This document shows, piece by piece, positions 6,837 through 32,863 of a DNA stretch of 35,975 nucleotides. This stretch comes from Bacteroidota bacterium (GTDB taxonomy: Bacteria > Bacteroidota > Bacteroidia > Bacteroidales > F082). The stretch lies in contig JAJRQN010000142.1 of assembly GCA_024280235.1 (NCBI GenBank), positions 1-35,975 of the forward strand. The letters are read 5' to 3'. The notes beneath the pieces are model-generated. The model was not told the DNA's origin. It made no database searches and saw only the letters and a program-made list of their open reading frames with translations. Position numbers and translations under genes: made by a program. Position 1 is the stretch's first letter. Every line of letters begins with the position of its first letter.

Positions 6837-7266
6837 TTATTTCAGCGATACAATTAAGAAAAGAAGTAAAAGTGCAAAGATTGTGTACAAAATAAGGCTT
6901 AAAAAACTGACCAGAACATACCGGATAACAAACACCCCTTCAAGGGAGTCAAAATGAATCCATGCTCTTAGAATAAGATAAACTGCCGTAACGAGGATAA
7001 AAAATGCCACAGGTTTGTAATACTTTTTTCTTTTTCCGGCTATATATTCCTTAAAAAGCATTCCCGGATTGACGATGAGTAGCCGGAGCGTTAGCCACAA
7101 AGGTCTCTCAAGAGCGAAGGCGATACCCATAAAATTGCGGATTGTCTCCTTGAAGCTAATCCTTCCTGTACCGGAAGGTTGTCCACACCCGGCACAAAAG
7201 TTTCCATGTAGTTGTTGTGCCACAATTAAGACAACAGCTATTATTATTTGTTAATGTCTGCTGCAT
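6837..7266 (-). pseudogene. DUF3667-family membrane protein, frameshifted
   Basis: The gene starts at an ATG at 7266-7264 preceded by CAGGAG. The first frame encodes MQQTLTNNNSCCLNCGT, giving the first CxxC of a zinc ribbon. The frame then shifts, and the other frame continues QLHGNFCAGCGQ (second CxxC), ISFKETI and GKRKKYYKPVAFFI, followed by three hydrophobic segments. Removing one A from the ACAACAAC tract (about 7210-7219) would rejoin the halves as CGT-QLHGNFC, the family layout. The C-terminus also looks short: about 145 residues against the usual 230 or more. DUF3667 proteins are Bacteroidota membrane proteins of unknown function. Either a broken gene or a sequencing indel. Confidence 0.65.
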
Positions 7267-9506: not shown

Positions 9507-11186
9507 TTATTCTGTCAACCAATTTATTGCTTCTTGTGTTATTTCATTATACCAATCCACCTCATTATCGGTTGTGTGTGCCAATTCGTTGGAACGTTCG
9601 AAAAATCGTTGAATATGTCTTGGCTCCGGTATATAATTTGCATTGTATGAAGCTTCAACAATTTTAATGAACACACTCAATGGTAATGGGACAATTGTCG
9701 AAGTTCCTCCATAATATTGAATATTCATCTTGTGCAAAGCATAAAAATGTGCTTTGCAAGCATCATTTATGTTAGGAGCAATAAACAAGCAATAAGCAGA
9801 TTTCTCTGTTTCTTTTTTATATTTTGCAAGGTGTCTTGTTACTGGCTCTCCTTCTGTTTCATATTGCCTTTGTCCGCTTTGCATTGTTACCTCCACCGTC
9901 AAACCAAAATCTCCGTAATCACAGACAATATCGGCCATATTTCCTTGTGCCGTTGACATTGGTTTTCCAAAATCATCAAATTTCAGATTTGTTTGAATAT
10001 TACCTCCGTCCAGCATTGTCATTGCTCTCCAGGTATTCCACTCCAACATCAATGGAGTATCATAAAGTGAATTATCGAGTATCTGTTCAAAAGTTGATTT
10101 TATCTCCTCGAAAAGTCGGTAGTCCTTAATTGCTGCAATCTGGTCTTTAAGTATTTGTTCTTTTCTGTTTTCTAATTCATCTGCAAATATGTTTTTAAGT
10201 TCTTGTAATATTGCGGTTTCAGGTATTTGAAGTTGAGGGAATTCAGTTCGTATTTTTTGTTCGAGTAATTCTCTGTTGTCAGTTAATAGCGTTGGAATCT
10301 GAGGGTTTCCAAGATATGCAACATATTGTCGTTCACTGTCTATAAAGCAAGGTTCTCTATCTGAGTTTTGCAGGAAGAAATCAACATCTTGTATTTTTTC
10401 CGGAACGATAGATATTGACTTTCCTAAATGTGAAATATTGACTAATCCTGTCACACGTAAATAACGGAAACAAGCATCTGCATAAACACGCATATTACTT
10501 GCTTTGGTTCTTAAAAATTTTGTAACCGAAGCATCATTGGTTTCCCTTGTTCTTGTATTACCTGAATTTATATCAGCACTGTAAATTTCTCCGAGTTCCC
10601 TTTTCAGGTATTCAGCACGAAACTTTTTATAATTTCCTTCATTTTGTGTTTTTGCTATTCTGAACAGGTCAATCTTATCAACAATAGTGTCGAATTGTCT
10701 GTAATTGACTAATTGCAACCCAAAAATCATCAATTCATCGAATTTCAATGAACCGAAATGTCTAATCAGTCGGAATAATTCAAGATACGGCTTTATCCAA
10801 AAATCTGTTGAATTATCGGTTGGTTTATGATAGGGTGAGGGTATTTGAAATTTGAGTAACTGTCTTAAAAATATCTCTTCTTTTCTTCTTAAATTGATTA
10901 ATTCTTTACCTGCCGGAGTTAATTGTATAGTTGGGGATAGTATAACAAAACCAAGTGATTTCGGTGCTCGATTAATACGGTCTCTCGCACTAAATGCAGG
11001 GTCGTTTGCACCTTGGCCATTGAAAAAGTTTTCCTCTCTCAATAGCTCCATAAAAGCTCTTTGTGTTTTTGTATTCCATTTTTGACCCGAAAAGTATGTG
11101 TTCAGCAATCTTATTTCAGGAATCATTTTGGCCGGTGTCCGTGGAGACGTGGTAACGAAAATTACTTTGCTGTCTATCCTTGCCAT
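9507..11186 (-). CDS. AlwI-family type II restriction endonuclease
   Basis: A 559-residue protein, large for a type II enzyme but usual for the AlwI/PleI/BstNBI type IIS family. Recognition rests on overall layout: an N-terminal TSPRTPAKMIPEI block, a DNA-binding mid-part, and a C-terminal nuclease region. There LEWNTWRAM (381-389) precedes MADIVCDYGDFGLTVEVT (417-434), so D419 and E432 are candidate PD-(D/E)xK metal ligands, followed by the conserved-looking GEPVTRH. AlwI itself cuts outside GGATC; the specificity here is unproven. It is the last gene of a three-gene operon, six bases after the methyltransferase. That gene order lets methylation precede cutting. A+T content is above that of the flanking metabolic genes, which suggests acquisition. 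Confidence 0.8.
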   Translation of the reverse strand: MARIDSKVIFVTTSPRTPAKMIPEIRLLNTYFSGQKWNTKTQRAFMELLREENFFNGQGANDPAFSARDRINRAPKSLGFVILSPTIQLTPAGKELINLRRKEEIFLRQLLKFQIPSPYHKPTDNSTDFWIKPYLELFRLIRHFGSLKFDELMIFGLQLVNYRQFDTIVDKIDLFRIAKTQNEGNYKKFRAEYLKRELGEIYSADINSGNTRTRETNDASVTKFLRTKASNMRVYADACFRYLRVTGLVNISHLGKSISIVPEKIQDVDFFLQNSDREPCFIDSERQYVAYLGNPQIPTLLTDNRELLEQKIRTEFPQLQIPETAILQELKNIFADELENRKEQILKDQIAAIKDYRLFEEIKSTFEQILDNSLYDTPLMLEWNTWRAMTMLDGGNIQTNLKFDDFGKPMSTAQGNMADIVCDYGDFGLTVEVTMQSGQRQYETEGEPVTRHLAKYKKETEKSAYCLFIAPNINDACKAHFYALHKMNIQYYGGTSTIVPLPLSVFIKIVEASYNANYIPEPRHIQRFFERSNELAHTTDNEVDWYNEITQEAINWLTE

Positions 11187-11192
11187 ACAATG

Positions 11193-12101
11193 TTATAATG
11201 TTGTTGCTTTCTCAAATTCTAACTGCGGATATCGTTTTTTTGCTTCATTGCCATAGTTAGAAATTAAAATATGATTTGCAGAAGACTTAAATCTATTTCT
11301 AATATTCACTGCATAAGATTTTCCATATTCATCAACTATCATATCTCCATACAATTCTTCCGTTAATGGCGTTCTACCAATAACCATAAGTGCTTTACAT
11401 TTTAGTTTTTTATAATTGTTGGCTAATTCGATATGATTTTTTTGACTAAATCCATCTTTGTATTCGGCATTTCCGTAATCAGAAAAAACACAGTCATAGG
11501 GTGGGTCTAAAAACATAAAATCATCATCTTCAGCCATATCAAATATTTCAGAATAGTCAAGATTTAATATCTCTGTGTTTGCGAGTAATTTACTATGAGC
11601 CTTTGTTACCAAAGAGGTGTTTAAATTGGCATACCGTCCATAAGGCACGTTAAACTCACCCTTTGCATTGTATCTTATCATTCCTGAATATGCTGTTTTA
11701 TTGATAAAAAAGTAAAGTAAAGCATCAGAGTATTTCTTTTCTATCAAGTCGTTGAACATATCTCTAATTTGGTAATACAATGTTTCGTTTTCATCAGCTA
11801 CTCGCTTTTCAGGTGTTTTACTTTTTAATTCCTCAAACTTCTTTCGATTAGTTACATATTGTTTTTCTATTTCCGAAAGTTCTGTTTTTAGAGTCTCAAA
11901 GTTGTTCTTAGCACCTAAATAGAATGCCATTAGCTTAGAGTTTATGTCGTTTATTATTGCTCTTTTTGGTTCTAAATGAAAGAACAATGCGCCACCGCTA
12001 AAAAATGGCTCAATATATCTGCCACTATAATTCGGAATATGTTTTATTAGATGTGATATCTCTTTAGATTTACCTCCTCTGTATTTTATTAATGGTTTCA
12101 T
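11193..12101 (-). CDS. DNA adenine N6-methyltransferase (Dam/D12 class)
   Basis: A 302-residue alpha-class adenine methyltransferase. Motif X is IKYRGGK (5-11), motif I the YIEPFFSGGALFF stretch (29-41), then NDIN (51-54), and the catalytic motif IV is DPPY (199-202). The 60-180 segment fits the target-recognition part between motifs I and IV. It should transfer a methyl group from SAM to an adenine at the operon's recognition site. A Dam-like enzyme methylating GATC would protect both strands of GGATC, the AlwI site; this is inference. The start ATG overlaps the regulator's TGA stop (ATGA), so the two are translationally coupled. Confidence 0.88.
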   Translation of the reverse strand: MKPLIKYRGGKSKEISHLIKHIPNYSGRYIEPFFSGGALFFHLEPKRAIINDINSKLMAFYLGAKNNFETLKTELSEIEKQYVTNRKKFEELKSKTPEKRVADENETLYYQIRDMFNDLIEKKYSDALLYFFINKTAYSGMIRYNAKGEFNVPYGRYANLNTSLVTKAHSKLLANTEILNLDYSEIFDMAEDDDFMFLDPPYDCVFSDYGNAEYKDGFSQKNHIELANNYKKLKCKALMVIGRTPLTEELYGDMIVDEYGKSYAVNIRNRFKSSANHILISNYGNEAKKRYPQLEFEKATTL

Positions 12102-12409
12102 GCTTGGGCAACTTTTCGTTTATACTTAATAATGTTTTCTGCAACCACATTTAAAATTTGTGTTGCTTCTTCCTCTTCTGCAATAATATCATAAACTTTA
12201 TCTGCTGACCACAAACGAAGTAACTCCTTTGAATCAACTTGAAGCAAGTCAGAAAGAATAATTACCTGTTCTCTTTTTGCTCGTCTATCACCCTTTTCGA
12301 TTTTACAATATGTTGCTGTGTCAATCTCTAAGACAGCAGCTAATTGTCTCTGAGGAATTTTTTTTTCCTTTCGAAGCGACCTGATTTTATCACTAAAAAT
12401 AATTGACAT
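12098..12409 (-). CDS. XRE-family HTH regulator of the restriction-modification operon
   Basis: A 103-residue protein with a Cro/C1-type helix-turn-helix at about 20-43 (QRQLAAVLEIDTATYCKIEKG). It heads the operon and overlaps the methyltransferase by four bases. Controller (C) proteins of type II systems are usually about 80 residues, so this is a little long; the extra C-terminal 30 residues are a charged helix. Its likely role is timing expression, delaying the endonuclease until host DNA is methylated. A clean promoter (12433-12463) and a palindrome at the predicted transcription start (12415-12424) lie directly upstream, consistent with autoregulation. Confidence 0.85.
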   Translation of the reverse strand: MSIIFSDKIRSLRKEKKIPQRQLAAVLEIDTATYCKIEKGDRRAKREQVIILSDLLQVDSKELLRLWSADKVYDIIAEEEEATQILNVVAENIIKYKRKVAQA

Positions 12410-13852: not shown

Positions 13853-15043
13853 ATGTACGGAAAATTTAAAGAACATTTAACCCGCGAACTGGATAACATC
13901 CGCAACGAAGGGTTGTATAAAAATGAACGAATTATCGTCAGCCCGCAAGGTGCTGAAATATAATTGGAATCAGGAGAAAAAGTACTGAACTTCTGTGCCA
14001 ACAACTACCTCGGCCTTTCCAACCATCCCGAACTGATTAAAGCCGCCAAAGAGGGCCTCGATACACACGGTTACGGTATGTCGTCAGTACGGTTTATTTG
14101 TGGCACCACTGATTTGCACAAAACGCTGGAGCGGAAAATTGCTGAGTTTTTTGGTACCGAAGATACTATCCTGTATGCTGCTGCTTTTGATGCCAACGGG
14201 GGTGTCTTCGAACCACTACTCACCGAAGAAGATGCCATTATCTCGGACAGTCTGAACCATGCTTCTATTATTGATGGCGTAAGGCTTTGTAAAGCACAAC
14301 GTTATCGTTATCCCAATGCCGATATGACCGGTCTCGAAGAGGAACTGAAAAAAGCACAGAAAAATCGTTTTCGCGTGATTGTTACCGATGGCGTCTTCAG
14401 CATGGATGGCAATGTGGCACCTGTAGATAAAATAGCAGAGCTGGCCGAAAAATATGATGCCATGGTGATGGTGGACGAAAGTCATTCGGCAGGCGTTGTC
14501 GGTCATACAGGAAGAGGCGTCAGTGAGTACTTCAATATTACAGGACGCATCGATTTGATTACCGGGACACTCGGAAAATCGTTCGGAGGTGCCATTGGCG
14601 GTTTTACCACAGGACGTAAGGAAATAATCGAAATGCTGCGTCAGCGTTCGCGGCCTTATTTGTTTTCCAATTCACTACCGCCTATGGTGGTCAATGCCGG
14701 TATTCGTATGTTTGACATGATGTCGGAAACAAATGCGTTACAGGATAAATTGCATCAGAATACCGATTATTTTATGGAAAAGATGACGGCTGCCGGTTTT
14801 GACATTAAACCAACTAAATCGGCTATTTGTGCTGTCATGCTTTACGATGCCAAATTATCTCAGGATATGGCGGCAAAACTGTTGGATGAAGGAATTTACG
14901 TTATTGGTTTTTATTTTCCGGTAGTTCCCAAAGGAGAAGCGCGTATTCGTGTACAGCTTTCGGCAGCTCACGAACAACAGCATCTGGATAAAGCGATTGC
15001 TGCTTTTACAAAAGTCGGGAAAGCGCTTGGCGTGATAAAATAA
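13853..15043 (+). pseudogene. kbl: 2-amino-3-ketobutyrate CoA ligase, in-frame TAA at codon 37
   Basis: The ATG at 13853 opens MYGKFKEHLTRELDNIRNEG and continues to GAEI, then TAA (13961-13963), then LESGEKVLNFCANNYLGLS in the same frame to 15043. Without the stop it is 396 residues, the normal Kbl length. PLP lysine is in GTLGKSFGGAIGG (position 242 of the full frame), with DESHSAGVVG upstream. Kbl cleaves 2-amino-3-ketobutyrate with CoA into glycine and acetyl-CoA, the second step of threonine breakdown; threonine dehydrogenase is at 27958-28914. Family members usually have lysine at the stop position (recalled), so AAA to TAA is the simplest change. Restart at TTG 13964 would lose 37 N-terminal residues. 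Nonsense mutation, sequence error or readthrough are all possible. Confidence 0.8.
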
Positions 15044-31435: not shown

Positions 31436-32863
31436 ATGTCTGTTTTTCAAAGCCGTGAAATTTCTATTGGGCACCTGCGTCTCGGAGGCGGGCAGCCTGT
31501 GCGTATTCAAAGCATGACTAATACGCCCACAATGGACACAACAGCCACGGGGAAACAAATTATTCGTTTGGCGGAAGCCGGTTGTGAACTTGTGCGTGTT
31601 ACGGCTGCCAACATCAAAGAAGCTGAAAATCTGGAAAATATCATTGAAAGTCTGCACCAATATGGAATCAATATTCCGCTTGTTGCTGATATTCATTTTC
31701 AGCCCAAAGCAGCTGAAACGGCCGCCAAAATCGTAGAAAAAGTGCGCATTAATCCCGGAAATTATTCCGGTTCGTACCACAAAGCGAAAAAATATTCAAC
31801 TGCCGATTATCGGAATGAATTACAGAAAATGGCGTTAAATCTAACCCCTTTGCTGAACATTTGCAAAGAATATAATACTGCTATTCGTATCGGTATCAAC
31901 TATGGCTCACTCTCAGACCGCATCCTGTATAAATACGGCAATACTGCTAAAGGAATGGTAGCTTCGGCTATGGAATTTATCCAAATTTGTCGGGAAAAGC
32001 ATTTCGAAATGCTTACCCTTTCGCTTAAAGCGAGCCACGTTCCCACTATGATAGAAGCCAATAGGATGATGATATCTGAAATGCAATTACACGGTTACAA
32101 CTATCCGCTTCATATCGGGGTAACCGAGGCAGGCAACGGAGAGGAAGGCCGCATAAAATCGGCTATGGGAATAGGTACTTTGCTGGCCGAAGGAATTGGC
32201 GACACCATTCGCGTTTCGCTTACCGAAGCGCCGGAAAATGAAATTCCTGTGGCTCGGCGATTATTAGAATTTTTTGGTAGAGGTGGTTCTAAGTCACGGA
32301 CAATGATACAATACCTGCATGCCAAGAAACTAACTTCCACTCAGCGAAATGCTGTAGCATTTATTAATGAAACGCCAATTTTTCCGAAAGAGAATTATGT
32401 TCTCCTTCTCTCCTATTCAGGTATAACGGCAGAAGAATTGATGCTTCGTGCGCCGATGGATTTTGTACGGGCATACGAAGATAAAAAAGCGGATGGATTG
32501 CTCATTGAGAACGGTTCTGACAATCAAAATTTCCGGCGTTTGGCTTTGCAGATTTTGTAGGCATACGGTTTGCGTTATTCGAAAACCGAATTCATAGCCT
32601 GTCCTTCCTGCGGGCGAACTCTTTTCAATATTGAAGATAAGCTGGCAATAGTTAAACAACGACTCGGTAATTTTAAAGGGCTGAAAATCGCCGTTATGGG
32701 TTGTCTCGTAAACGGACCGGGCGAAATGGCCGGCGCTGATTATGGTTTTGTGGGTTCTGATCCCGGAAAAGTGAGCCTTTATAAAGGAGAGAATATACTT
32801 TACAGAAACGTTCCTGAAGAGGAAGCGCCTGATATACTGGAAATGGTGATAACAAAGAGATAA
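31436..32863 (+). pseudogene. ispG: IspG (HMB-PP synthase), in-frame TAG at codon 375
   Basis: IspG (GcpE) makes HMB-PP in the MEP isoprenoid pathway. The N-terminal 374 residues form the TIM-barrel domain (RIQSMTNTPTMDT, VADIHFQPKAA, RIGINYGSLSDR, GVTEAGNGEEGRIKSA) and a short insert; the frame hits TAG (32558-32560) and continues in phase as AYGLRYSKTEFIACPSCGRT to GCLVNGPGEMAGADYGFVG. The second part carries all three [4Fe-4S] cysteines and the cluster-binding glutamate, so the first product alone would be dead. Homologues typically read LQ at the stop (recalled), so CAG to TAG is likely. Restart at TTG 32570 has no ribosome site. The gene is normally essential when MEP is the sole route, so sequence error or readthrough deserves as much weight as loss. 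Full frame: about 474 residues plus the stop, short for insert-bearing Bacteroidota IspG. Confidence 0.85.

Follow-up and report, generated by a model that had tools for sequence, protein, structure and literature searches.

Listeria has, beside its mevalonate pathway, a partial MEP pathway with MEcPP as its end point and a link to oxidative stress, according to the accessible parts of two reports (PMC13001223, PMC11192765). A survey across 4,400 genomes of bacteria, as far as its available text goes, saw no promising way around IspG or IspH and calls both enzymes evolutionarily rigid, with the stated limit that a species possessing another complete pathway would escape detection (PMC10663253). 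Here we analyse an ispG (gcpE) frame in a stretch of 35,975 nucleotides (the window) from a member of the Bacteroidota. The frame shares with known IspG/GcpE proteins a GcpE match over its whole length, all the Fe-S ligand residues and relatives in the PDB (3noy, 4mwa and 2y0f), but it differs from them in carrying an internal TAG and in belonging to a genus with no detectable IspH. We regard the TAG as an isolated, unprogrammed nonsense lesion in a well-kept ispG, one of many scattered in a draft assembly (probability about 0.83). On its own the stop codon is of little import and it is the surrounding gene content that matters: the interesting lead is a partial MEP pathway ending at HMBPP, and not the stop.

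The ispG frame and its relatives

Read through its TAG, the frame scores 398.4 bits against the Pfam GcpE profile with that one stop inside, past the family's curated cut-off of 32; it is not one uninterrupted open reading frame (table 1). The first half matches the profile over residues 7-282 (profile positions 2-249) and the second half over residues 2-97 (profile 247-341), which together with the translation bears out the first-pass annotation in its description of a single TAG splitting ispG into two halves in the same frame, with no further stop. The same annotation placed the stop exactly before the Fe-S domain. This holds for the Pfam border. In an AlphaFold2 model made with Gln in place of the TAG (mean pLDDT 90.1, pTM 0.91), however, the stop position, residue 375, falls within a helix (366-377) and not in an interdomain loop, just before the strand and loop bearing the CPSC motif. 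As modelled, the stop site is not an obvious linker between the domains. The insert domain, earlier thought to be reduced, is not so by the standard of its own clade, with 104 residues between the barrel and CPSC against 105-108 in five close relatives and 80-159 across all the copies aligned.

Table 1. Features of the window and their coordinates.
Feature	Position	Strand	Description	Basis
ispG (gcpE) frame	31436..32863	+	475 codons, the internal TAG counted among them, then TAA; start ATG at 31436, end TAA at 32861-32863	translation
ispG, first half	31436..32557	+	TIM-barrel domain and insert region, 374 codons	Pfam GcpE
ispG, in-frame TAG	32558..32560	+	sole internal stop of the frame	Gln in the other 25 copies aligned
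ispG, second half	32561..32863	+	C-terminal Fe-S domain; CPSC, C and GPGE motif residues retained	Pfam GcpE
kbl (2-amino-3-ketobutyrate CoA ligase)	13853..15043	+	in-frame TAA at 13961-13963	both parts align to solved KBL structures
Restriction-modification cluster	9507-12409	-	AlwI-type endonuclease, D12-class adenine methyltransferase, small HTH protein	Pfam
DUF3667 protein	6837-7223	-	128 aa, GTG start, seemingly short

The alignment comprises 25 ispG copies from 24 genomes plus the one under study (26 in total). Glutamine, encoded by CAG or CAA, occupies the stop column in every other copy (25/25), and Cys389, Cys392, Cys423 and Glu430, which we take to be the Fe-S ligands, are invariant columns. 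Over 122 conserved columns the ispG product has two private deviants, the other copies having between 0 and 5; judged by its sequence, the gene is free of any sign of decay apart from the TAG. Nei-Gojobori estimates of dN/dS for ispG, 0.117 between our assembly (G000) and its relative G010, where dS is saturated at 1.85, and 0.199 between G037 and G031 (dS 0.28), suggest that the IspG protein is maintained by purifying selection. A further value, 0.13 for the pair G170-G171, comes from two genomes with IspH and has no bearing on the IspH-less case.

Across the family, a GcpE match was found in 46 of the 173 genomes, and apart from our own the match rows, 49 in number, are all free of internal stops. 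Several copies at first seemed broken, but those of G038, G015 and G156, as well as an extra piece in G003, are cut by contig ends, and that of G039 by a run of N, with no stop in any of them. The first-pass annotation had called for a check for a second ispG in the genome, and a GcpE profile search of the assembly, rated 95.65% complete, returned none. The congener G011 has two full-length ispG copies (on L195 and L196), with IspH still undetected. Elsewhere in the window, the small HTH protein of the restriction-modification cluster may be the controller of that cluster.

Lesions in the wider assembly

The TAG of ispG is not alone. In the same window, kbl shows a comparable lesion, an in-frame TAA at a site that is Glu in a relative of 95% identity. 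The assembly itself consists of 275 contigs and, from this number and its quality figures, is probably derived from a metagenome. We compared a sample of 657,882 bases of it (21%), with 51,311 codons alignable to genes of relatives, with 124,568 codons of three relatives (G001, G003 and G005). The sample yielded 10 flagged stops, 8 of which were retained, and the three relatives together 4 and 1 (Fisher p = 0.0013 for raw and 3.5e-4 for retained flags); flags that, by eye, preceded a start codon (as both of those in G000 did) or sat at a gene junction were dropped (2/10 in G000, 1/1 in G001, 1/2 in G003 and 1/1 in G005). Besides kbl and ispG, the retained stops fall in a lipoprotein-like gene, rpoN, an outer-membrane barrel protein, a LytTR regulator, a RhuM-like gene and a gltD-like oxidoreductase, the names lipoprotein, gltD and rpoN resting in part on our own reading of sequence and domains. 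Relatives have Glu at five of these eight verified sites, Gln at two and Trp at one. The inferred changed base is G or C in 8/8, where uniform substitution gives an expected share of 0.51 (P = 0.005).

Frameshift candidates number three in the G000 sample (a GH3/beta-lactamase fusion, a CorC-like protein and threonine synthase), one in G003 and none in G001 or G005. Coding potential, read by eye, points to four further stops in G000 at genes without homologs in the samples: a TGA in a murF-alr fusion, a TAA in pdxA, a TAG in a methyltransferase-like gene and a TAA in a wzz-like gene, with the alr and pdxA identities compared with the PDB. The broken pdxA (TAA) and the murF-alr fusion (TGA) of this genome share one contig (L170:9500 and 11407). 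Candidates by coding potential amounted to 22 in G000 and to 7, 8 and 6 in G001, G003 and G005, but being mostly gene junctions they are uncounted save for these four. All lesion counts use genes filtered by coding potential, the full set of six-frame open reading frames being swamped by antisense frames and unusable. If the rate of the sample holds, the whole assembly would contain some 130 such stops, by extrapolation. Lesions of this type are not confined to G000 within the genus: G003 is also affected, with one stop and one frameshift candidate, and in the congener G002 a transaldolase-like gene has an in-frame TAA (L198 near 5368, minus strand).

MEP and mevalonate genes in the family

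Mevalonate-pathway genes, scored here by HMG-CoA reductase and diphosphomevalonate decarboxylase, are widespread. HMG-CoA reductase occurs in 169 of the 173 family genomes, in all 101 good ones and in all 12 of the genus. Diphosphomevalonate decarboxylase is found in 166/173 at E <= 0.001, a lenient threshold that other GHMP kinases also pass in controls, and over the curated cut-off in 12/12 of the genus. In the genome under study, the HMG-CoA reductase gene adjoins a GHMP-kinase-like gene, as read by eye.

IspH (PF02401) is detected in 12 of the 173 family genomes and in none of the 12 of the genus. With a second IspH model and E values allowed up to 10, 5/12 genomes of the genus returned weak and partial hits, the best with E = 0.025 and none near the cut-off; that best match lies in a serine hydroxymethyltransferase-like frame, and all these distant matches were rejected as partial and at chance level. 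Dxr, IspF and IspG, on the other hand, are found in 42, 47 and 46 family genomes, respectively, some of the Dxr matches being contig-end pieces, and IspE in 53 at E <= 0.001 (35 over the cut-off). IspG accompanies Dxr in 42/42 cases. The three enzymes Dxr, IspF and IspG occur together in 41 of the 173 genomes, 31 of which have no detectable IspH; by rounded figures, 24 of these 31 reach 90% completeness with no more than 5% contamination, and one of the IspH-less genomes, G001, consists of one contig 3,266,086 bases long. In G031, IspH was scored as present from a fragment of 53 residues lying where a contig ends. The family member G157 has IspH and IspF with no detectable IspG or Dxr.

Within the genus, Dxr, IspF and IspG are found together in 8/12 genomes, while IspF is missing from G002, Dxr from G009 and all three from G006 and G007. 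IspD-like genes occur in 12/12 (8 over the cut-off), and tell us little because G006 and G007 carry them without Dxr, IspF or IspG. In G000 the upstream enzymes scored, Dxr, IspF, IspE and IspD, are all over the cut-off.

IspH being undetectable in the genus, IspG therefore cannot supply isoprenoids via the known route. The first-pass annotation had called ispG essential and listed a mevalonate bypass among the ways to live with a real stop. The bypass finds support in the two mevalonate-pathway genes found throughout the genus. Essentiality does not: with those genes present, with IspH undetected and with G006 and G007 living without IspG, Dxr and IspF, ispG is, on gene content, not essential here. 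Since mevalonate-pathway genes are present and the genus has no detectable IspH, we expect that a real stop would leave isoprenoid synthesis running, the gene content being observed and all metabolite fluxes inferred. What it would do is cut an HMBPP-ending MEP branch back to MEcPP, as described for Listeria.

That the branch is kept at all is puzzling. Tentatively, and at somewhat less than even odds, we propose that the MEP enzymes up to IspG are selected for a non-isoprenoid product, HMBPP being either an end product or signal or the substrate of an unrecognised enzyme that replaces IspH, and that this species may shorten the branch to MEcPP. The neighbourhoods of ispG, dxr and ispF, read by eye from 75 N-terminal and 25 C-terminal residues per frame, offered no candidate for an IspH substitute. 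In a literature search we recognised no account of IspG kept without IspH.

Readings of the stop and comparison with known systems

A recent mutation or a consensus error, either of which the first-pass annotation had allowed for, is now favoured by the many like lesions in the same assembly and the few in relatives. An unprogrammed lesion is preferred because similar lesions abound in this assembly while none occurs in the ispG of relatives. Between its two possible sources, a wrong base in the consensus is the likeliest, at roughly even odds, and a genuine null allele ranks second. The number and spread of the lesions, the core biosynthetic genes hit and the otherwise good preservation of ispG speak for error. 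Like false stops dispersed through a metagenome draft, the lesions are single-base, unlinked and located in conserved genes; a literature search on such false stops found nothing. The lean to G or C, however, fits mutation, or DNA damage before sequencing, better than uniform base-calling noise. Failing a consensus error, the TAG would most probably be a recent null allele, a possibility that we rate clearly lower: the strain or population would truly have lost IspG, and its partial MEP pathway would now end at MEcPP. Such a loss would suit a genus in which IspH is undetected and in which G006 and G007 have lost Dxr, IspF and IspG, it would agree with the bias of the mutated bases, and it has a precedent in the MEcPP-ending partial pathways that the accessible parts of the Listeria reports describe beside the mevalonate pathway (PMC13001223, PMC11192765). 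Yet unrelated core genes (gltD, rpoN, threonine synthase) are lesioned in the same assembly, and the remainder of ispG, together with dxr and ispF, appears intact in searches.

The other readings are far less probable. Decoding of the TAG as an amino acid, whether by a suppressor tRNA, a code change or programmed readthrough, would give a full-length IspG, and the fully open frame beyond the stop and the Gln of relatives at that position would be expected from it. It is nevertheless very improbable, the least likely of all: the 38 tRNA matches in the incomplete assembly (37 typed by ARAGORN and one degenerate copy read from an alignment) show no anticodon complementary to TAG, TAA or TGA, three other genes of the window use TAG as their terminal stop, the other lesions of the assembly include TAA and TGA, and no relative has TAG at this site. 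On the tRNA set and the TAG-ending genes of the window, recoding and a suppressor tRNA were rejected. Among the tRNA genes, a degenerate tRNA-Gln-like gene at L176:7475-7546 (35.8 bits) was left uncalled by ARAGORN. IspG acts as a dimer, in which the Fe-S domain of one chain faces the barrel of the other. A split enzyme, with barrel and Fe-S domain made as two complementing polypeptides, would thus be conceivable, the stop lying near the Pfam domain border with a TTG 9 bases past it, but it is hardly any likelier than readthrough, given that none of the relatives has a split IspG, that the stop is placed within a predicted helix and that, besides the TTG, the next in-frame start-like codon (ATT 32630) is past the beginning of the CPSC codons. 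Neither of these two proposals of the first-pass annotation is thus upheld. Finally, an intact ispG or ispH might be present in the organism and absent from the draft. This is only slightly less improbable, and draws on the 275 contigs, on the incomplete assembly and on the copies truncated by contig ends or N in other members; it has against it the lack of detectable IspH throughout the genus (12 genomes, the single-contig G001 among them) and the restriction of a second ispG to the congener G011, apart from the contig-end piece in G003.

Taking the TAG as an unprogrammed lesion, the comparison of interest is with Listeria. As far as the accessible parts of those reports go, the likeness lies in mevalonate-pathway genes and an incomplete MEP pathway kept for a non-isoprenoid use. 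In contrast, Listeria is described as having an absent or defective IspG and as ending at MEcPP (PMC13001223, PMC11192765), whereas the family described here has IspG without IspH, and with the known enzymes its branch would end at HMBPP. A real TAG would mean that this species has come to resemble Listeria, with MEcPP as the end. By the limit stated in the available text of the 4,400-genome survey (PMC10663253), the family is of the kind that the survey would miss, with 31 genomes that combine mevalonate-pathway genes with an IspH-less MEP branch, and it offers a direct way to ask what role HMBPP or MEcPP has outside isoprenoid supply.
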